The notes under the pieces are model-generated. The model ran no database searches and had not been told where the DNA came from. It saw nothing but the letters and a program-made list of their open reading frames with translations. A stretch of 64,000 nt of DNA from an uncultured Flavobacteriaceae bacterium (lineage in GTDB: Bacteria > Bacteroidota > Bacteroidia > Flavobacteriales > Flavobacteriaceae): the NCBI GenBank assembly GCA_947494695.1, contig CANLWB010000012.1, positions 62,001-126,000 of the forward strand, in the 5' to 3' direction. This document shows positions 5,762 through 52,860 of the stretch, piece after piece. Position 1 is the stretch's first letter. Each line of letters opens with the position of its first letter. The translations under genes were made by a program, and so were the position numbers.

Positions 5762-6549
5762 CCAGTACGGCCGCAGAACGCTATTTATTGATTTATATGG
5801 TCGCTGTTTTGGTGATTATAACATCTTTGGTGGTGGTCTTTTTCATTGTATTCCAAAAAAGAAAAAATAAATTACTACTTGAAAGAATAAAGCAACAACA
5901 GGCTTTTGAAGAAGAGATCGCACGGGCGCAAACCGAAATACAAGAACAAACCCTTAAAAATATAGGGTGGGAGCTTCATGATAATGTAGGGCAGTTACTA
6001 TCGTTTGCCAATATGCAATTGAGTATTTTAAAGATGGAAGTGGCAGATAAACTAAAGGAGAAGTTTACAGATACCAGCGATGCCATAAAAAACAGTTTAT
6101 CTGAAGTTCGAGCACTCTCTAAAACCCTAAATAACGAAGTGATTTTGAATATAGGTTTCGAGCAGTCCATTACCAACGAACTAAACCGAATTAAAAAATT
6201 AAAATTTAAGACGGCAGAACTCAGAACCTTTGGAGATAAAATCGACTTTACAAACCTAAAACACGAAATCATTATTTTTAGAATTTTACAGGAGTTTATG
6301 TCGAATTCTGTGAAATATTCGGGAGCGGAAAGTCTAATTGTTACCATAGAATATCTAGACAATCGTTTAAAAATTACTGCTGAAGATGATGGTAAAGGCT
6401 TTGATATGGATAATGTGGAAAAGGGTGCGGGCTTGATTAATATGAAAAGTAGGGCGTCGCTAGTTCATGCCGATATGGAACTGTTCTCTAAGCCTAATGA
6501 AGGAGTGAAGCTGGTTTTGATGTATCCGGTTAATGGGGTGGGGATTTAG
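5737..6549 (+). CDS. NarX/LiaS/DesK-type sensor histidine kinase (HisKA_3)
   Basis: The product (270 aa) has one N-terminal membrane span (residues about 17-39), a coiled-coil linker (about 45-75), a HisKA_3 dimerisation domain with phospho-acceptor His81 in GWELHDNVGQLL, and a HATPase domain with an N-box (FMSNSVKYSG) and G1 box (DDGKGFD). Kinases of this class normally pair with a NarL/LuxR-type regulator encoded next to them. None is present here; the gene is followed directly by a heptamer repeat array and a convergent gene. It is therefore an orphan kinase in this window, or its partner was lost or moved. Confidence 0.9.
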   Translation: MVQTGERLASTAAERYLLIYMVAVLVIITSLVVVFFIVFQKRKNKLLLERIKQQQAFEEEIARAQTEIQEQTLKNIGWELHDNVGQLLSFANMQLSILKMEVADKLKEKFTDTSDAIKNSLSEVRALSKTLNNEVILNIGFEQSITNELNRIKKLKFKTAELRTFGDKIDFTNLKHEIIIFRILQEFMSNSVKYSGAESLIVTIEYLDNRLKITAEDDGKGFDMDNVEKGAGLINMKSRASLVHADMELFSKPNEGVKLVLMYPVNGVGI

Positions 6550-22404: not shown

Positions 22405-22416
22405 AATTTCAATATG

Positions 22417-22527
22417 TTTTAAAGGTTGGGCATTATGCCAGATAATAAGGAATTGTGTGAAAATCACAAGCTGTCGCGCAACTGTAAGTAATATAGATTA
22501 TTATAAGCCAGATACTTTCCTTTAAAA
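22417..22527 (+). promoter_or_regulatory. cobalamin (B12) riboswitch aptamer
   Basis: The closing stem is perfect: TTTTAAAGG (22417) with CCTTTAAAA (22519). Inside are the conserved blocks of the cobalamin aptamer: ATGCCAGATAATAAGGAAT, the GTGTGAAAATCACAAGCTG hairpin, the B12 box CGCGCAACTGTAA (about 22475-22487), a small TAATA/TATTA hairpin, and AAGCCAGATAC. The identification rests on these blocks and their order. The downstream gene is a PAS protein, not a B12 transporter or enzyme, which is unusual for this riboswitch. Confidence 0.88.
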
Positions 22528-22581
22528 CAGACGAATGTGCTTTCGCGATTTGAAGCCGGGTCAGGAAATATCTACCTTTCC

Positions 22582-44747: not shown

Positions 44748-45770
44748 TTACTTATTTTGTAAAGTAACAATTTTTCCTTCACGTAAAACTGTTAGTTCAA
44801 ATTTTGGATTTTTTTCTAAGCTATTTGCAAAATCAGCAATCTTCAATAAGGTGTAGTCTGTAACATCGTACTTTATATCATTAAAAGCCAATATAATATC
44901 ACCGCCCAAAATTAGTTTTTTATTACCAACAGTTACCTCAGTATCCCCTTCTTTTACGCCCATTTTATCAAATAAAGACCCAGAAGCAATACGTTGCACT
45001 AATAAACCACTTGTTTGAGGCAGATTAAACAGTTTAGCTTCTTTTTCAGATAAGGAATATAACTCAGCACCAAACCAAGGCATTTTATTATTTAAAAGGA
45101 GTTTGGCAGCTAAATTAGACGTTGAGGCATAACCAATACCATCAGAACCCCCTGATAGTGATTTTATGTGACTTACAATACCTATAACATCACCTTCTAA
45201 GTTGAACATTGGACCTCCAGAGTTACCTTGATTTATAGCAGCATCTGTTTGAATAAACTCCGTATTAGTAAAAGGGTTTCTCCCTAAAAATTGTTTTTTA
45301 AAAGCACTAATATAACCTGAAGATAGAGATAAACCAACACCAAGTGGCACACCAATAATAAATACGCGTTGTCCAACTTTCATTCGGTCTGAATCGCCGA
45401 ACCTTAAAACGGTAGTATTTATTTTTTGTCTTGATAATTCTAATAAAGCGATGTCTGCACTATCATAGGAAGTAATTACTTTAGCTGGTATAGTTTCTCC
45501 ATCTGAAAACTGTACAACTAAAGTATCGGGTACTTTTACAACATGAGCAGCTGTTACAACAAGTTTATTTGATATCATAAAACCTGAGCCTAACCCAGAA
45601 TTTGTAACTGTCTGAGAAACATTATTTTGAGAGGTGGCAATATTGCTTTCTTGAGTGTAAATAGCAACAACGGCTGGACTTACCCTTTCATAAATAGAAG
45701 ATAGGTCTTGGGCATTAGTATAATGTATGGTAAATAAGCATATTAGAATTAATCTAATTATTTTTTTCAT
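44748..45770 (-). CDS. HtrA/S1C-type periplasmic serine protease
   Basis: The 340-aa exported protease has the trypsin-like triad His76 (VTAAHVV), Asp106 (SADIALLEL) and Ser184 (QGNSGGPMF). A PDZ-like domain follows (about 245-335; SGLLVQRIASGSLFDKMGV). This is a DegP/DegQ layout with a single PDZ. It probably degrades misfolded envelope proteins, which suits the two adjacent outer-membrane barrel genes downstream. Confidence 0.93.
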   Translation of the reverse strand: MKKIIRLILICLFTIHYTNAQDLSSIYERVSPAVVAIYTQESNIATSQNNVSQTVTNSGLGSGFMISNKLVVTAAHVVKVPDTLVVQFSDGETIPAKVITSYDSADIALLELSRQKINTTVLRFGDSDRMKVGQRVFIIGVPLGVGLSLSSGYISAFKKQFLGRNPFTNTEFIQTDAAINQGNSGGPMFNLEGDVIGIVSHIKSLSGGSDGIGYASTSNLAAKLLLNNKMPWFGAELYSLSEKEAKLFNLPQTSGLLVQRIASGSLFDKMGVKEGDTEVTVGNKKLILGGDIILAFNDIKYDVTDYTLLKIADFANSLEKNPKFELTVLREGKIVTLQNK

Positions 45771-47791: not shown

Positions 47792-48268
47792 TTATTCAAA
47801 TATAACATCACCTGTTTTTAAATTTTCAATATCCTTTTGATTTCTAGTGTTAACAGGAACCTCAATAATTAAGAACGTATCTTCTCCATCAGAATCTTTG
47901 CCTTGATAAAATTTAAAAATGTAAGTTTCTTTTTGTAATGCTCTTACTGGTATAGAAAATGTTGTTTCAGTAATAACTTCATTACAACCAATACCATCAT
48001 CTACATGTACTATGGGGTAAATAAGTCTTGTTGGTCCATCATAAATGTAATCAAACTGGTCATAGTAAAAATAGCAACTATTGGGTAGCGATATGGTTAT
48101 ATTAATTTGGTAAGTACTCCCGTAATTAAATCCATCAGGAAGTTCTGCGTTTATAACACCTGAATACTCTAAGTGGTAGTCGTGGTCGTTATCGTTGTCG
48201 CTGCTGCATGATAATACAGATATAGAAAGAACAACGATTATAATTAATAAATACTTAAATCTTTTCAT
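47792..48268 (-). CDS. hypothetical lipoprotein (158 aa)
   Basis: The product has an SpII signal with lipobox VLSC (KRFKYLLIIIVVLSISVLSC) and then an acidic linker SSDNDNDHDYH. The mature domain is beta-rich (NITISLPNSCYFYYDQFDYI), with paired cysteines that may form a disulfide. It is probably outer-membrane anchored. I do not recognise the family. Its own promoter is visible at 48292. Confidence 0.75.
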   Translation of the reverse strand: MKRFKYLLIIIVVLSISVLSCSSDNDNDHDYHLEYSGVINAELPDGFNYGSTYQINITISLPNSCYFYYDQFDYIYDGPTRLIYPIVHVDDGIGCNEVITETTFSIPVRALQKETYIFKFYQGKDSDGEDTFLIIEVPVNTRNQKDIENLKTGDVIFE

Positions 48269-48324: not shown

Positions 48325-48456
48325 TCATTTGAAGTATTTAATGGTTAATAATATTGATTTTATTTTCTCTCTTATTTTAGTGTATCCAAAAACTCCTATT
48401 TGAATTAATGCCGACACTAATACTATGATTTTCACGTATTCTAATAAAATAGTCAT
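48325..48456 (-). CDS. very small membrane protein (43 aa)
   Basis: A clean 44-codon frame on the minus strand encodes a single-span protein: MTILLEYVKIIVLVSALIQI then GVFGYTKIREKIKSILLTIK. The hydrophobic segment followed by a basic, amphipathic tail is typical of regulatory or stress microproteins. It begins 12 bp after the stop of the 62-aa gene, so the two share the repeat-bearing promoter at 48689. No family is recognised. Confidence 0.6.
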   Translation of the reverse strand: MTILLEYVKIIVLVSALIQIGVFGYTKIREKIKSILLTIKYFK

Positions 48457-48468
48457 AACTTCTAGTGT

Positions 48469-48657
48469 TTAGTGTCTCATAGCTACTCCTGCAGCTGTTC
48501 CATATTCTTCTAGCGTTTTGACAAACCCTTTGATAGTGTTTTTGAAACCTATTTTAACTTTTTCAAACGTTGTATATGTTGGTATTTCTCCTATTATAGG
48601 TCTATAAAAATTCTTGTTGAATTGAGCGTTGTTAATTGTTGTGCTTTGAGTTCTCAT
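48469..48657 (-). CDS. small hypothetical protein (62 aa)
   Basis: The 62-aa product has no signal peptide or membrane span; the middle is basic (FEKVKIGFKNTIKGFVKTLE) and could form an amphipathic helix. It is the first gene after a promoter with a Bacteroidetes -7 element and three upstream direct repeats. Its promoter layout matches that of the 46-aa gene at 52606, which supports it as a real and co-regulated gene. Function is unknown. Confidence 0.6.
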   Translation of the reverse strand: MRTQSTTINNAQFNKNFYRPIIGEIPTYTTFEKVKIGFKNTIKGFVKTLEEYGTAAGVAMRH

Positions 48658-48688
48658 ATCTATTTGTGTTTAATGATTATTTATAGTA

Positions 48689-48778
48689 CAAATGTAGCCT
48701 GAAGCAACAGAGGAAATCGGAGCTATTTAAGTGAAGTGACCAAATAATTAGGTGAAGTGATTCTACTTGAAAGTGAAC
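48689..48778 (-). promoter_or_regulatory. promoter with three direct repeats, candidate LytTR operator (site 1)
   Basis: On the minus strand the -7 element TACATTTG (48689-48696) is preceded by three direct repeats of TCACTT type. Read on the plus strand they are AAGTGAAGTGAC (48729), AGGTGAAGTGAT (48750) and GAAAGTGAAC (48769). Cores are spaced 21 and 16 bp. The gap from -7 element to nearest repeat is 32 bp. Spacing of 21 bp between 9-10-bp direct repeats suits LytTR-type regulators, one of which is encoded at 49973. A near-copy stands at 52771. Confidence 0.65.
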
Positions 48779-48866
48779 TTAAAATGTTAGTATGAGGTAA
48801 GTGATATGAGTTGAAGAAAAGGGCTCGTTTTGATGGGCTAACTATAAGGATAAGAATTCAAAAATG

Positions 48867-49937
48867 CTACTCATATTGAAGCGTATCTTCAATACGTGTT
48901 ACGGAATAGATATTTACTGTTCCTTGTTTACCTTTTAGAAGCACATTGCCTTCAAGTACAGATGTTGTCCATGAGTCAATTTCAACGACTTTTAAAAGTT
49001 TCTCTGAAATAAGTAAATCAAATCCTAATCGATTACATTGGTCTTGGATTCTTGAAGCTGTATTTATAGTATCACCATGATATGCAATTTCACGTTTATA
49101 TTCTCCAACTTCTGCAACAGTTATGGCACCACAATTCATACCTGCTTTAAATTCTGGTACTAAACCATAAGTTTTCATATAGTAATCTGTTCTACTATTA
49201 ATTTGGTCTTTAAAAGCATAAAAAGCTAGTATACTTTTAGCGTTTTTAAGGCCTTCTTTATACGGCCAAGTTAATACCGCTTCATCTCCTACATATTGAT
49301 AAATAGAAGCTTTATATTTATTAACTATAGCTAAATCATAAAAACAGTCTTGAAGGAGTTTGCTATATTTTATATGCCCTAATTTTTCAGCAATTGTGGT
49401 AGAGTTTCTAAGGTCTAAAAACATGAAAATAAGCTCTTTCTCTTTTGGAGTATAGAATTCTCCTGAAATAAATTTAATCAAATTGCCTTCACCTAGCATT
49501 AAATTAATATTGAGAAAAAGGCTTATAAAGAAGTTAACTGCTATAGTATAGATAAAGCTTACCCAAATGACAGGTAATTGAATAAACTCTGATAATTTAA
49601 AAGTAATGTCTACAAATATTTCAATCTTAACAAATAAATAAAATATAAATACATAAAACCCAATAGCAGATATAATTTGTAGTATAAGTGCAAATACCAA
49701 TAACTTAGATAATGAAATACGTTTTCTAACCAATTTTTCAAGGAAAATATGGAGTGTGCCGTAAAGTAACCCTTGGGTTATCCATGCTATAATGAATATA
49801 AAAAATATATTGGAGAAAGAATCCTCCATATAAGGGATGTTAACGTCCTGAGATCCTCGAAGGAGTTGCCAGACGAGGCTCGCTATTAACCAACCTATGA
49901 TATAATCCCGTAATATTTTATAATGTCTAGATTTCAA
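48867..49937 (-). CDS. class III adenylate/guanylate cyclase with membrane domain
   Basis: The 356-aa product has four N-terminal membrane spans (residues about 12-145) and a C-terminal class III nucleotide cyclase domain (about 168-335). Metal-binding Asp175 (FMFLDLRNST) and Asp218 (YQYVGDEAVL) are present, as is GDTINTASRIQ with transition-state Asn and Arg. It probably makes cAMP, though the substrate-specifying residues were not resolved. It is 35 bp downstream of the LytTR regulator on the same strand, suggesting one operon. Confidence 0.9.
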   Translation of the reverse strand: MKSRHYKILRDYIIGWLIASLVWQLLRGSQDVNIPYMEDSFSNIFFIFIIAWITQGLLYGTLHIFLEKLVRKRISLSKLLVFALILQIISAIGFYVFIFYLFVKIEIFVDITFKLSEFIQLPVIWVSFIYTIAVNFFISLFLNINLMLGEGNLIKFISGEFYTPKEKELIFMFLDLRNSTTIAEKLGHIKYSKLLQDCFYDLAIVNKYKASIYQYVGDEAVLTWPYKEGLKNAKSILAFYAFKDQINSRTDYYMKTYGLVPEFKAGMNCGAITVAEVGEYKREIAYHGDTINTASRIQDQCNRLGFDLLISEKLLKVVEIDSWTTSVLEGNVLLKGKQGTVNIYSVTRIEDTLQYE

Positions 49938-49972
49938 ATTAAATCATTGATAGTTAAGCGTTTTTAGTGAGC

Positions 49973-50734
49973 CTAATTATTTATCCAATTTTTTATTTCG
50001 GAAGATTTGGCTTTGCTTATTGAAATGCGCTCTTTAGATGGCGGATTTACATTAATAATTAGTTTTCCATTAAAGTAGAATTTTATATTCTGTATCGCAT
50101 TTCTATTAAGTATAAATTGCCTGTTTGCTCTATGAAAATTATACGGGTCTAATTCGTTTTCAATGTCTTCTAGTTTTTTATCTATTATGTAAGTTTGATT
50201 TTTAAATGTCATAGCTTGTACAATACTGCTTTCAATATAGAAATAGGCTATATCTTCTACTTTAACAGGAATTAATTCATCTCTCTGATGTACTAAAAAT
50301 GTAGTTCTGAAAACCTGATTTTTAGATTGCATTAATTGTACTAATTGTTGGATGTTATCATAAGAGATTGTGTCAATTTTGGCATTAGTTTTAAACTTTT
50401 TAATTGAGTGACTTAATTCTTCCTCATCAATTGGCTTTAAAAGATAATCAATGCTATTTAACTTGAATGCTTTTAAAGCATATTGATCATAAGCTGTTGT
50501 GAATATTATGGGGATATTGATAGTTACCTGTTCAAAAATTTCAAATGAAATACCATCAGAAAGATGTATATCCATAAAAACTAAAACGGCTTCACTTGGA
50601 TTAGAAAAATAATCGATGGTCGATTTCACAGAATCCAGAACAGTTAGTATCTCTATGCTAGGATCTATATTATTTATTAAGTAAGTGAGTTGTTCACTTG
50701 CTGCTAATTCATCTTCTACAATAACTACTTTCAT
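49973..50734 (-). CDS. LytTR-family response regulator
   Basis: The 253-aa product has an N-terminal receiver domain (acidic pair in VEDE, phospho-acceptor Asp55 in VFMDIHLSD, Lys in LLKPIDEEEL) and a C-terminal LytTR DNA-binding domain (about 150-250; PVKVEDIAYFYIESSIVQAM, NFHRANRQFILNRNAI). LytTR proteins bind pairs of direct repeats. It overlaps no gene, being 5 bp after the LytS-type kinase. The two repeat-bearing promoters at 48689 and 52771 flank it and are its likely targets. Confidence 0.95.
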   Translation of the reverse strand: MKVVIVEDELAASEQLTYLINNIDPSIEILTVLDSVKSTIDYFSNPSEAVLVFMDIHLSDGISFEIFEQVTINIPIIFTTAYDQYALKAFKLNSIDYLLKPIDEEELSHSIKKFKTNAKIDTISYDNIQQLVQLMQSKNQVFRTTFLVHQRDELIPVKVEDIAYFYIESSIVQAMTFKNQTYIIDKKLEDIENELDPYNFHRANRQFILNRNAIQNIKFYFNGKLIINVNPPSKERISISKAKSSEIKNWINN

Positions 50735-50739
50735 GGTAA

Positions 50740-51795
50740 TTAATTTAAAGAAAGTTTGACTTTAAAGGTGTTATTTTTGTTACTTATTGTTATGTGCTTC
50801 TTTTTTAGAGCATAATACCGCTTATTAAGGTTTGATAAACCGTTTCCTGTTCCAGTAGCTAAACTTTTTCTGGGTCTTATTTCATTTTCAATAATTATGA
50901 ACGCATCTTCGGAATATATATTAACTTGAAGTGGGTTCTCTTCTGATATTTCATTGTGTTTAATGGCATTTTCAACTAACAACTGAAGCGCTAAAACGGG
51001 CACTTCTTTTTTTATCCATTTTTCATGAATATTATAAGTAATGTTAAAACGATTACGATATCTTGTTTTTATTAAATGTATATAACTACTTAAAAACTCA
51101 AGCTCTTCTTCTATAGATACTAAATCTCGTTCACTACTTTGTAATATATAACGATACATGGAGGAGAGTTTGTTTATAAAGTTGGTCGCATCTTTGTTTT
51201 CTTTGACTAAAGCGCTTAATGAGTTTAGTGAATTGAATAAAAAGTGGGGATTAACTTGATTTTTTAATGCCATCAATTCATTTTGTAAGCTTTGTTGTTT
51301 TAAAGCTTCTTGCTCTATCAATTTTTCTTTTAAGCTCATTTGATACCTTAAAATTCTAGCGATAAATATGATTATTATTGCTATAATAAAATATACGAAG
51401 TAGGTTAACCCTTGTTCTTCTGAAACCATTGATTCTCCTACTAACCTTGGGTACAAAAAGAAGAATAAATGTAATAAAGCGAAGTATAAAGCAATATTAA
51501 TTATGATAGTTGTTAACCCTCTTAGTACGCTTTGAAATTTTGAATAAAAATATTTAGTGTTTGCATTAAACTCTAATAACAACCAAGAAAAAAAGGTAAA
51601 CCATAAAAACCGAAAGAGTATATCTTTTACAGAAGCCGTAGTGAAAGCAGTTGATAGGTCATCTACAATATCAAATATAATTAAGATTCTAGGAGAGGTT
51701 AAAAGTGTTGATATAATAAATGCTATACCTAGTAAAACGTTTTGCTTTATAAATTTGGTCGTCAAAATGGTTATAGTGTTATTGATGAAGAACAT
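50740..51795 (-). CDS. LytS/YehU-type sensor histidine kinase
   Basis: The 351-aa product has four membrane spans (about 15-150), a short coiled coil (about 155-178) and a His_kinase domain with the phospho-acceptor His184 in QVNPHFLFNSLNSL. A HATPase domain ends it (LALQLLVENAIKHNEIS; GTGNGLSNLNKRY). It lacks an extracytoplasmic sensor domain, so the signal may be membrane-borne. It is 5 bp from its regulator and forms a classic two-component pair. Confidence 0.95.
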   Translation of the reverse strand: MFFINNTITILTTKFIKQNVLLGIAFIISTLLTSPRILIIFDIVDDLSTAFTTASVKDILFRFLWFTFFSWLLLEFNANTKYFYSKFQSVLRGLTTIIINIALYFALLHLFFFLYPRLVGESMVSEEQGLTYFVYFIIAIIIIFIARILRYQMSLKEKLIEQEALKQQSLQNELMALKNQVNPHFLFNSLNSLSALVKENKDATNFINKLSSMYRYILQSSERDLVSIEEELEFLSSYIHLIKTRYRNRFNITYNIHEKWIKKEVPVLALQLLVENAIKHNEISEENPLQVNIYSEDAFIIIENEIRPRKSLATGTGNGLSNLNKRYYALKKKHITISNKNNTFKVKLSLN

Positions 51796-51937
51796 AACTA
51801 ATATAGTTAAAATTAATGTAAGTAAATTGTATAATTTTAGCTGATTATGAATGAAATTAAAAACTGCCAGCGGGGTATGAGTATTTCAATAATCTCTGGT
51901 AGTCAAACTAACCAACCAAATTAACTATGCATGAAAA

Positions 51938-52591
51938 TTATTTTATCAATTTTTTTATTATTTGTTTTGAAAAATCTTTAGAAATTGTTCCTAACGACTT
52001 AGGGTTGTCAATCTCTGTCATTATAACTGATATTAATTGTTCGCTATCAGTTTTTGTTAAATCGTAAATTACAGTTTCGAGAATGTATTTTTTACCTGTA
52101 TATGTAATGGTGTTTTCAGGTTCAGATTTTACATGAATACTATTGTAGTAACGATAGAATGTACCGTTAGGCCCTCTAAAGTATGTGGGAAAATAAAGTG
52201 TTGAGTAACTACCACCAGTTGTTTCTGTTCTGGTATATTCTTGAGTATCTTTTAAAGTATTAAGAATAATTATGTCTACGCCTTTATTTTTCAAATCCTC
52301 AACGATTTTTTGCACTTCATTTTCGTTAAGTTTTACCTCAGTATCAATTTTTGGAAAAACGGTTAAGCTTTCCATAGAATTGAGACCATGTTCTCTTAAT
52401 TTGTTTACAAGGTCACTCTCAAACTGACTTCTAACAATATTGTCATCCGTTTTACTTATTACCATGATGCGCTTATCACTTAAATTGAGCTCTTTTGAAT
52501 GGTTCCAAGTACTAACAACTTTGACAGTTGAACAACTTGTAACTATAACAATTAGTATTAATATGCTCAGAATTTTGTTTATTGTTTTCAT
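51938..52591 (-). CDS. lipoprotein, member B of a paralogous pair
   Basis: The 217-aa product has lipobox VTSC (KTINKILSILILIVIVTSC) and then STVKVVSTWNHS, RIMVISKTDDNIVRSQFESD, VFPKID, KNKGVDIIILNTLKDTQ. It shares these blocks with the lipoprotein at 41363, so the two are diverged paralogs. The middle is longer and contains a YFPTYFRGPNGTFYRYYNS insert not seen in member A. It is 14 bp downstream of the 46-aa gene and is therefore probably under the repeat-bearing promoter at 52771. Confidence 0.8.
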   Translation of the reverse strand: MKTINKILSILILIVIVTSCSTVKVVSTWNHSKELNLSDKRIMVISKTDDNIVRSQFESDLVNKLREHGLNSMESLTVFPKIDTEVKLNENEVQKIVEDLKNKGVDIIILNTLKDTQEYTRTETTGGSYSTLYFPTYFRGPNGTFYRYYNSIHVKSEPENTITYTGKKYILETVIYDLTKTDSEQLISVIMTEIDNPKSLGTISKDFSKQIIKKLIK

Positions 52592-52605
52592 GATTTCTAG
52601 TGTAT

Positions 52606-52746
52606 TTATATAAACATATGCGTGTTATTTGTAGTATCGTTATTAATTAAATTTAATCTTGTTGAGATATGATTTTTAGAATGTTTTATGTTTAAAAACC
52701 GTCTTACAAAACTCCATTTCTTTAGAATTGATTTTAACTTTTTCAT
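52606..52746 (-). CDS. very small basic protein (46 aa)
   Basis: A 47-codon frame on the minus strand encodes MKKLKSILKKWSFVRRFLNI followed by KHSKNHISTRLNLINNDT. The N-terminal half is strongly basic and amphipathic, so it may bind membranes or nucleic acid. It lies 24 bp from a TACATTTG -7 element and 14 bp before the lipoprotein start. The promoter layout matches that of the 62-aa gene, which supports expression. It could be a leader rather than a functional protein. Confidence 0.55.
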   Translation of the reverse strand: MKKLKSILKKWSFVRRFLNIKHSKNHISTRLNLINNDTTNNTHMFI

Positions 52747-52770
52747 GACGTTATTGTTTAAATTCTTATA

Positions 52771-52860
52771 CAAATGTATACCACGCCTAAAGGCAGAATC
52801 ATGACTTTTTAAGTGAAGCGACTAAAATCTAAAGTGAAGTGTTTTATATTGAAAGTGAAC
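52771..52860 (-). promoter_or_regulatory. promoter with three direct repeats, candidate LytTR operator (site 2)
   Basis: The -7 element TACATTTG (52771-52778, minus) is preceded by repeats read on the plus strand as AAGTGAAGCGAC (52811), AAAGTGAAGTGT (52831) and GAAAGTGAAC (52851). Core spacings are 21 and 16 bp and the gap to the -7 element is 32 bp, exactly as at 48689. Sequence between the repeats differs, so the match is not simple recent duplication. It controls the 46-aa gene and lipoprotein B. Confidence 0.65.

Follow-up and report, generated by a model that had tools for sequence, protein, structure and literature searches.

A LytS–LytTR sensor–regulator pair flanked by promoters with triple direct repeats, and its likely regulon in Flavobacteriaceae

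We analyzed a window of 64,000 nucleotides from an uncultured marine Flavobacteriaceae bacterium and found two promoters with the same three-repeat operator on either side of a LytS-type kinase and a LytTR response regulator. Both promoters very probably belong to the intervening sensor–regulator pair, judging from comparison with related genomes, and we consider it likely that the pair is a LytS–LytTR two-component system with a dedicated regulon of its own. The switch recurs beside the LytTR orthologue in dozens of related bacteria, before tiny proteins, envelope lipoproteins, and what appear to be small RNAs.

Results

All features of the window described here lie on the minus strand. In a domain search, the LytS-type kinase (50,740–51,795) carried His_kinase (PF06580, E 5.1e-25), and the directly adjoining response regulator (49,973–50,734) combined a receiver (Response_reg, E 5.2e-10) with a LytTR DNA-binding domain (E 1.5e-19). 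These domains, and the roughly 21-bp period of the direct repeats in the promoters, are those of a LytS/LytTR two-component system. Regulators of the LytTR Regulatory System type lack a receiver domain and are controlled by a membrane inhibitor protein; the receiver domain and the adjacent kinase ruled out membership in that class. Downstream of the regulator lies a class III adenylate/guanylate cyclase-like gene (48,867–49,937; Guanylate_cyc, E 9.6e-8) with a membrane anchor recognized by eye.

Site 2 has an operator at 52,811–52,859 with three copies of TTCACTT, starting at 52,859, 52,838, and 52,817 and kept in relatives, and a −7 box, TACATTTG, at 52,771–52,778, whose distance to the repeats is fixed in relatives. 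At site 1 (operator 48,729–48,777), TTCACTT, TTCACCT, and TTCACTT start at 48,777, 48,756, and 48,735, and TACATTTG occupies 48,689–48,696. At both sites the repeat period is 21/21 bp and the start of the first repeat is 81 nt from TACATTTG. Rereading the sequence at both sites bore out the original prediction of paired minus-strand promoters, each with three TCACTT-type repeats of which the last is 32 nt from the −7 box, but corrected its core spacings of 21 and 16 bp, a reading that arose from a choice among overlapping TCACTT words (TCACTTCACTT). The sequence between the repeats differs, as predicted, and has diverged while the spacing and the −7 distance stayed fixed across genera.

The exact pair TCACTT-N15-TCACTT occurs three times in the 5.49-Mb genome, always within sites 1 and 2, compared with six occurrences of the reversed control pattern; a single pair is thus not rare, and what is rare is the triple with a promoter. 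Of the 21 repeat letters, two places in the window matched 20 or more and three matched 18 or more, whereas no match at either threshold turned up in 40 Markov-random windows. The check proposed with the prediction, a search of the genome and its relatives for the repeat pattern, returned only these two strong sites in the own genome: a site model of which both are part matched site 1 at E 1.4e-18 and site 2 at E 2.6e-18, the next best match having E 0.026. A simple sigma-70 scan, uninformative for Bacteroidota promoters, gave 34 matches vs. 32.7 in shuffles.

The same geometry was found in relatives. In 33 relatives' loci outside motif building, we counted 37 repeat pairs at a spacing of 21 (three-repeat sites counting twice) vs. 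0 to 4 at each of the other spacings from 15 to 28 and a random-sequence mean of 0.85, and 35 of 36 TAnnTTTG boxes near repeats in loci outside motif building stood at fixed offsets. The sites also followed the regulator. All 40 other genomes searched that have a LytTR orthologue had sites at E 6e-7 or better, compared with 1 of 26 genomes without one; at E ≤ 1e-3 the latter number rose to 4, the three marginal sites having E 3.8e-4 to 8.8e-4. Many of the genomes tested had themselves supplied training sites to the model used, R1. Genomes without a training site are cleaner tests, as are orthologue loci on contigs that were, by their length, new to the analysis; of these loci, 41 of 42 carried a site. 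Among orthologue loci from named records (54–96% identity), sites were found in 63 of 65 at E ≤ 0.01 and in 62 at E ≤ 1e-4, and the two site-free loci contain less than 1.7 kb upstream of LytTR. Of 41 orthologue loci, 39 have a site ahead of lytS on the strand of that gene, at a distance of 153–1,281 bp, the two misses being contig ends.

These patterns of co-occurrence and position before lytS strongly support the predicted activation of both promoters by the neighboring LytTR regulator (49,973), and the 21-bp period and fixed promoter distance are as expected of a LytTR activator; most likely it switches on its own operon in addition to both promoters. It is improbable that the repeats are true operators of another regulator, either a LytTR paralogue or an unrelated factor, and that the neighboring gene is merely linked. 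Such a reading could draw on the own genome, where the LytTR response regulator has 18 matches, and on one genome (G004) with a strong site and no orthologue, but four genomes of the same genus (G005, G007, G008, and G011) have 14 to 22 regulator matches and neither an orthologue nor sites, lytS is regularly preceded by a site, and 15 more distant LytTR loci gave a single weak match (L313, E 3.1e-4, about equal to the weakest orthologue match, L292, E 2.5e-4). The sites cluster in some genomes, with tandem copies in L174 and L175, as might a repeat that is mobile or was recently duplicated and has no regulatory meaning, but with diverged inter-repeat sequences, constant repeat spacing and −7 distance across genera, and genes of a few recurrent families behind them we give this origin hardly any credence. 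The description "small autonomous regulon" fits the own genome and its two strong sites but not the relatives, which hold up to 10 sites each.

As the prediction had it, site 1 precedes ORFs of 62 and 43 codons, and site 2 a 46-codon ORF and a lipoprotein gene. The 46-codon gene s46 (52,606–52,746), first behind site 2, belongs to a family with C-terminal MFI/LFI and looks coding, with dN/dS of 0.15–0.58 among six relatives (a count that excludes the window copy, which is longer by one codon). For s62 (48,469–48,657), dN/dS was 0.26–0.93 on few changes and is hence weak; its C-terminal YGxAAxAxR recurs in other genera. The 43-codon ORF s43 (48,325–48,456) has one membrane span by eye and varies in length from 35 to 53 codons, and ORFs resembling it by eye stand behind sites in L041 and L303. 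The third gene behind site 1, lipo158 (47,792–48,268), encodes a lipoprotein and in other genomes (L181, L185, L186, and L188) immediately follows a site of its own. In G004, which is without a LytTR orthologue at E ≤ 1e-80, the strong site stands before a lipo158 gene. The lipoprotein gene behind site 2, lipo217 (51,938–52,591), has relatives in many orthologue loci; its AlphaFold2 model (mean pLDDT 72.5) resembles PelC/CsgG-type outer-membrane lipoproteins, the best Foldseek match being PelC (E 5.1e-7).

Outside the window, two microprotein families with the C-termini LFI and YGxAAxAxR, lipoproteins, and ORF-less units stand behind the promoter. The family alignments, from which near-identical copies were left out, have 14 LFI members, one of them (L039) without the LFI tail, and 7 YGxAAxAxR members. 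ORFs were listed for 122 of 127 site matches (five were dropped, one of them because overlapping loci had yielded it twice) and for 62 of 103 in a second set. As the first ORF was chosen by a rule of our own (ATG within 160 nt, length weighed against distance), single gene assignments may be wrong.

The ORF-less units look like 130-nt RNAs. Sites without an ATG ORF of at least 25 codons that starts within 160 nt made up 26 of the 122 inspected, 25 of them in clusters L170–L173 and L175–L178. The core of these units is also present in the 3′ UTR of lipo217 in the window, where a candidate 3′-end-derived small RNA (51,852–51,968) consists of the conserved core TTTTCAT...GTTAGTTTG and a terminator-like hairpin. 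This small-RNA-like 3′ UTR behind the site 2 lipoprotein gene was absent from the original prediction. The lipo217 3′ end was the best match in the window, at E of only 0.0064, of a model (R3) made exclusively from array units of other genera, and all 13 R3 matches at E ≤ 0.1 in 601 kb fell at the 3′ end of a lipo158, lipo217, or LFI gene, 4 of the 45 sources given to R3 having been chosen because model R2 already matched there. R2 had weaker matches elsewhere in the own genome (E 3.3e-4, 0.0031, and 0.0096). At the Rfam gathering threshold, nine sources (the window, L170–L173, and L175–L178) gave no family for the units, only a cobalamin riboswitch elsewhere. We rejected the idea that the array units contain a tiny ORF (MVSLVSL... 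from ATGGTTAGTTTGG): several copies have lost the ATG (CATATAGTTAG in L177 and L178) and the frame ends differently among copies.

The 3′ end of lipo217 probably gives a small RNA, one whose core is shared with the free-standing array units. A mere terminator or mRNA-stability element, with the array units likewise by-products, is an alternative that we take seriously while leaning away from it. It agrees with the hairpin of the window 3′ UTR, no more stable than shuffles (z +0.33); z was −3.29 in L034, −5.53 in L035, and about −2.7 in two array units, and compensatory changes affected 6 of 12 pairs of the array hairpin. It agrees also with the antisense search: an 18-mer complementary to the array core, with up to three mismatches, gave 132 matches in four genomes, part of them the RNA units themselves, vs. 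125 for the reversed pattern, no clear excess (29/32, 21/28, 37/35, and 45/30 by genome). Against it stand the concentration of ORF-less sites in the named clusters and the unpaired core ahead of the hairpin, which is the best conserved part, with 19 of 27 columns invariant in 24 array units. Ten antisense near-matches were inspected, and two (L227 and L232) start exported-looking proteins. One of these two is a UPF0164-like protein (a sub-threshold match) whose start regions, in some of 60 combinations with array cores, reached pairing z values as low as −3.7, but the window's own core gave z +0.74 with its own orthologue; this target was picked after the fact and is a lead only.

The links to HtrA hint at a role for the regulon in envelope stress. 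HtrA genes occur in 13 of 41 orthologue loci, seven of them outside the genus, and an HtrA/Deg-type protease gene (44,748–45,770) lies in the window, there not behind a site. Lipoprotein and Spy-like genes recur behind sites; "Spy-like" is a label given by eye to proteins of 140 residues, and of three compared with LTXXQ, one had a sub-threshold match (19.3 bits against 24.3) and two had none. These recurrent genes and the HtrA loci beyond the genus argue against another role, such as cyclic-nucleotide or nutrient signaling, which we hold to be a considerable, if lesser, prospect: the cyclase and a DASS anion transporter adjoin the system within the genus, and a cyclase relative is also found in L039, L083, L087, and L107.

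Discussion

Comparison among relatives shows the anatomy of the sites, their co-occurrence with the regulator, the position upstream of lytS, the microprotein families, and the shared RNA core. From these we infer a mechanism in which activated LytTR would bind as a row of subunits on two or three TTCACTT half-sites 21 bp, or two helical turns, apart; the row would end just upstream of the promoter core and recruit the housekeeping polymerase to the TAnnTTTG promoter. Site 2 would turn on s46 and lipo217, with read-through into lytS–lytTR as positive feedback, and site 1 would turn on s62, s43, and lipo158. A working terminator in the 3′ UTR implies that read-through to lytS must be partial. 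The outputs would be microproteins and envelope lipoproteins, perhaps serving against envelope stress, and the lipo217 mRNA 3′ end would probably be processed to a small RNA sharing its core with the free-standing units of related genera.

Gram-positive LytTR regulators acting on direct repeats with an RNA output are known in AgrA–RNAIII and VirR–VR-RNA. The present system shares the regulator type, direct repeats, and a candidate RNA output, but its RNA-like units are short and multicopy, and forms in 3′ UTRs occur beside them. Another LytS/LytTR pair is Escherichia coli YpdA/YpdB, with cooperative binding and a direct repeat, GGCATTTCAT, in the yhjX promoter; LytTR sites are there described as generally two repeats of 9–11 nt with spacers of 11–13 nt (PMC4847170), which gives a period of about 21 bp. 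Our system resembles that pair in kinase, regulator, direct repeats, and period. It differs in that the flavobacterial sites often have three half-sites at a fixed distance from the Bacteroidota TAnnTTTG promoter, that a site lies upstream of lytS, and that the targets are microproteins, lipoproteins, and RNA-like units. The Cpx response to envelope stress, which includes CpxP and the 3′ UTR RNA CpxQ (PMC4817254), is likewise a two-component system. Relatives of the window's system have Spy/CpxP-like small exported proteins, and the regulatory-RNA candidate is, as with CpxQ, a conserved element that closes a regulon mRNA at its 3′ end; here, however, LytS–LytTR replaces CpxA–CpxR, and free-standing promoter arrays are a second source of the candidate RNA core. 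The transcriptome of Flavobacterium psychrophilum, another member of the Flavobacteriaceae, has the TAnnTTTG box at −12 to −5 and small RNAs, among them Rfp18 (PMC9723704); the main text of that study does not contain the word LytTR.

More broadly, the data suggest, tentatively and at slightly less than even confidence, a stress regulon that extends across the marine Flavobacteriaceae and has one LytTR operator, a protein arm of two previously unrecognized microprotein families and outer-membrane lipoproteins, and an RNA arm formed by a multicopy small-RNA family with the unpaired core TTTTTCATAT-RGTTAGTTTGGTTAGTTTG, coming from dedicated promoter arrays or from the 3′ ends of lipoprotein and microprotein mRNAs of the regulon itself. 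The LFI and YGxAAxAxR microproteins are possibly feedback regulators or protease ligands. Among the papers searched, we found no description of a LytTR operator or regulon in Bacteroidota by title or abstract; the own genome has 18 LytTR response regulator matches. The system offers an operator whose spacing and promoter rules are defined, together with a likely regulator and a target set, and gives two microprotein families a regulatory context. It also provides a natural comparison of 3′ UTR-derived and free-standing RNA candidates with a common core; if the broader reading is true, one RNA signal has in the course of evolution changed places between 3′ UTRs and genes that stand alone.

Promoter Anatomy and Repeat Spacing

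On its minus strand, the window carries a 46-codon microprotein gene (s46), a lipoprotein gene (lipo217), a LytS-type kinase and a LytTR response regulator, and further a cyclase-like gene, microprotein genes of 62 and 43 codons (s62 and s43) and a second lipoprotein gene (lipo158). The kinase–regulator pair is flanked by two promoters, each with three TTCACTT-type repeats at a 21-bp period; in both, TACATTTG begins 81 nt downstream of where the first repeat begins. The original prediction of matched triple-repeat promoters around the pair thus holds for their presence, but the period is 21 bp and not 21/16. A passage of PMC9723704 places the TAnnTTTG box of Flavobacterium psychrophilum at -12 to -5, so that the third repeat would lie at about -51 to -45, adjoining the -35 region. 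The gene after LytTR is class III cyclase-like (48867-49937, minus strand), with relatives of 39–48% identity near the regulator in L039, L083, L087 and L107. The window also contains a cobalamin riboswitch (22406-22537, plus strand; Rfam RF00174, E 1.1e-11).

We built a weight matrix from 30 repeats in 10 sites (taken from the window, from five loci of the same genus and from one locus of another) and applied it to 33 other loci totaling 423 kb. Repeat pairs with a spacing of 21 occurred 37 times, sites with three good repeats being counted twice, and every other spacing from 15 to 28 gave 0–4 pairs; the mean in random sequence was 0.85 pairs. Near the spacing-21 pairs, 35 of 36 TAnnTTTG boxes started 38/39 or 59/60 nt past the start of the second repeat, offsets that amount to a single register in sites with either two or three repeats. 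Judged by these comparisons, the repeat pattern is not a product of chance and is conserved in relatives. A sequence model of the promoter sites (R1; 42 sites, both window sites among them) recovered the two window sites from their own genome (E 1.4e-18 and 2.6e-18), where no other match was better than 0.026. The search of the genome and its relatives proposed as a check returned two strong sites at home and a spacing of 21 recurring in other loci.

Association with the LytTR Orthologue

An orthologue of the regulator (E ≤ 1e-80) was present in 36 of 397 family genomes, the window's own included. With strict filters, R1 was searched against 66 other genomes, 40 with and 26 without the orthologue. 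Sites were found in 40/40 of the former (weakest best E 6e-7; many of these genomes supplied training sites); among the latter, one genome (G004) had a site at 5e-9 and three had marginal sites at 3.8e-4 to 8.8e-4. Because of the shared training sites, we ran a cleaner test on 65 orthologue loci of 54–96% identity from named GTDB records, including Flavivirga, Algibacter, Hyunsoonleella, Aquimarina, Arenibacter, Maribacter, Winogradskyella and others. A site was found in 63 of them at E ≤ 0.01 and in 62 at 1e-4; the two site-less loci, L286 and L304, each extend <1.7 kb upstream of LytTR. Sites occurred in 41 of the 42 new contigs, the other 23 loci lying on contigs that, by their length, had already been covered, and more distant LytTR loci (36–45% identity) gave a weak R1 match in 1 of 15 (3.1e-4). 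A same-strand site lies 153–1281 bp upstream of lytS, with intervening genes possible, in 39 of 41 loci, the remaining two (L036 and L105) being contig ends. The operator anatomy, the promoter register, the link to LytTR and the placement upstream of lytS are all borne out by comparison of sequences.

G004, of the same genus and without the orthologue at E ≤ 1e-80, combines a strong site, a lipo158 gene and a 3'-end RNA core in L181 (3387-4032), which may be a relic or reflect cross-regulation. In L254, L258, L261, L266, L272, L298 and L301, an R1 site lies right behind the LytTR gene, at ~5768-5868. In the last five, it precedes an exported protein of ~140 residues that is Spy-like by eye, an arrangement seen also in L082 and L084, which cover the genomes of L254 and L258.

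Genes behind the Promoters

R1 gave 127 matches in 61 sources, and of the 122 inspected for ORFs, 96 are closely followed by one of 25 codons or more. The s46 family, ending in MFI or LFI, accounted for 16 of the 96 ORFs and the s62 family, with a YGxAAxAxR-like tail, for 10; in each family, seven members are from the window itself or from the loci most closely related to it (L034-L038, L080 and L081). Both also occur in other genera: Aquimarina and Kordia have the s62 type, and records of Psychroserpens, Croceitalea and Allomuricauda have members with the LFI ending. The dN/dS of 0.15–0.58 indicates that the s46 gene evolves as protein-coding. Other recurrent ORFs were members of the lipo217 and lipo158 families, acidic repeat proteins, DUF6515 proteins (a single one tested, at E 2.8e-26) and small exported proteins that are Spy-like by eye, with a subthreshold LTXXQ match in one of three tested. 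The predicted structure of lipo217 (mean pLDDT 72.5) is similar to that of PelC (Foldseek E 5.1e-7); similarity to CsgG and GNA1162 is weaker, and all three are outer-membrane lipoproteins. HtrA-type genes occurred in 13 of 41 loci, six of the same genus including the window, which was searched over 64 kb, and one stands beside lipo158 in two further loci.

Divergent R1 pairs sharing one intergenic region (L041:9269-9536, L094:8475-8727, L269:3246-3498 and L303:2498-2772) place an LFI microprotein opposite one of s62- or s43-like type. The equal-score sites L174:4126 and L174:5383 each precede a lipoprotein ORF, and the two ORFs agree in all 170 residues compared, which points to a recent duplication.

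A Candidate RNA Arm

Of the 26 inspected sites not closely followed by an ORF of 25 codons or more, 25 belong to the clusters of L170-L173 and L175-L178. In L170-L173, L177 and L178, most R1 sites are followed by ~130 nt with a common core, AGTAAGTTTTTCATAT-RGTTAGTTTGGTTAGTTTG. These array units have a putative terminator hairpin in which 6 of 12 pairs show compensatory changes (hairpin z about -2.7 in two units), and gave no match in Rfam. The clusters in these six loci are apparently a multicopy family of small RNAs. In L176:1292-2575 and L175:1394-2386, R1-type promoters stand 274–361 and ~300 bp apart, respectively, before units that mostly lack an ORF, have terminator-like ends and differ in sequence from the main family (GATAAGTGTTAATTGATC or like in L176).

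A similar core occurs at the lipo217 3' end in the window and its relatives L034, L035, L038, L080 and L081. To avoid circularity, we trained an RNA model (R3) exclusively on 24 array units found in other genera and searched 45 sources (601 kb): the 41 loci with the orthologue plus four picked for matches to R2, a mixed model. All 13 R3 matches at E ≤ 0.1 fell at 3' ends of genes of the target families: eight behind lipo217, four behind lipo158 (in the picked loci) and one behind an LFI ORF assigned by eye. With the window searched alone, the best match was the lipo217 3' end (51968-51852; E 0.0064, next 0.61). R2 matched at E ≤ 1e-4 in 12 of 15 genomes that carry the orthologue and in 6 of the 19 that lack it; matches below 1e-8 came from orthologue-bearing genomes and G004 only, and the window's own genome held weaker matches elsewhere too. 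The hairpin is weak in the window (z +0.33) and strong in two relatives (z -3.3 and -5.5). Comparison among loci supports both the recurrent target families and the common RNA core. Antisense-match and pairing tests established no mRNA target of the core. A UPF0164-like outer-membrane-type protein, picked post hoc, has a start region partly complementary to array cores (L235-L245).

Placement and Proposed Working

As its domains and repeat spacing fit, the system is classed as LytS/LytTR, E. coli YpdAB being a studied likeness (PMC4847170). Cpx/CpxQ would have a like layout if the candidate RNA arm is real, although the window's system is no member of Cpx. Searches of open-licence papers returned no title or abstract that describes this LytTR system.

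We propose that phosphorylated LytTR would bind and activate the repeat promoters, that transcription from lipo217 would read through to lytS, and that a small RNA would be released from the lipo217 3' end. One may speculate that the microprotein s43 feeds back or that LFI tails bind a PDZ protease. The system as a whole may have a role in envelope stress.
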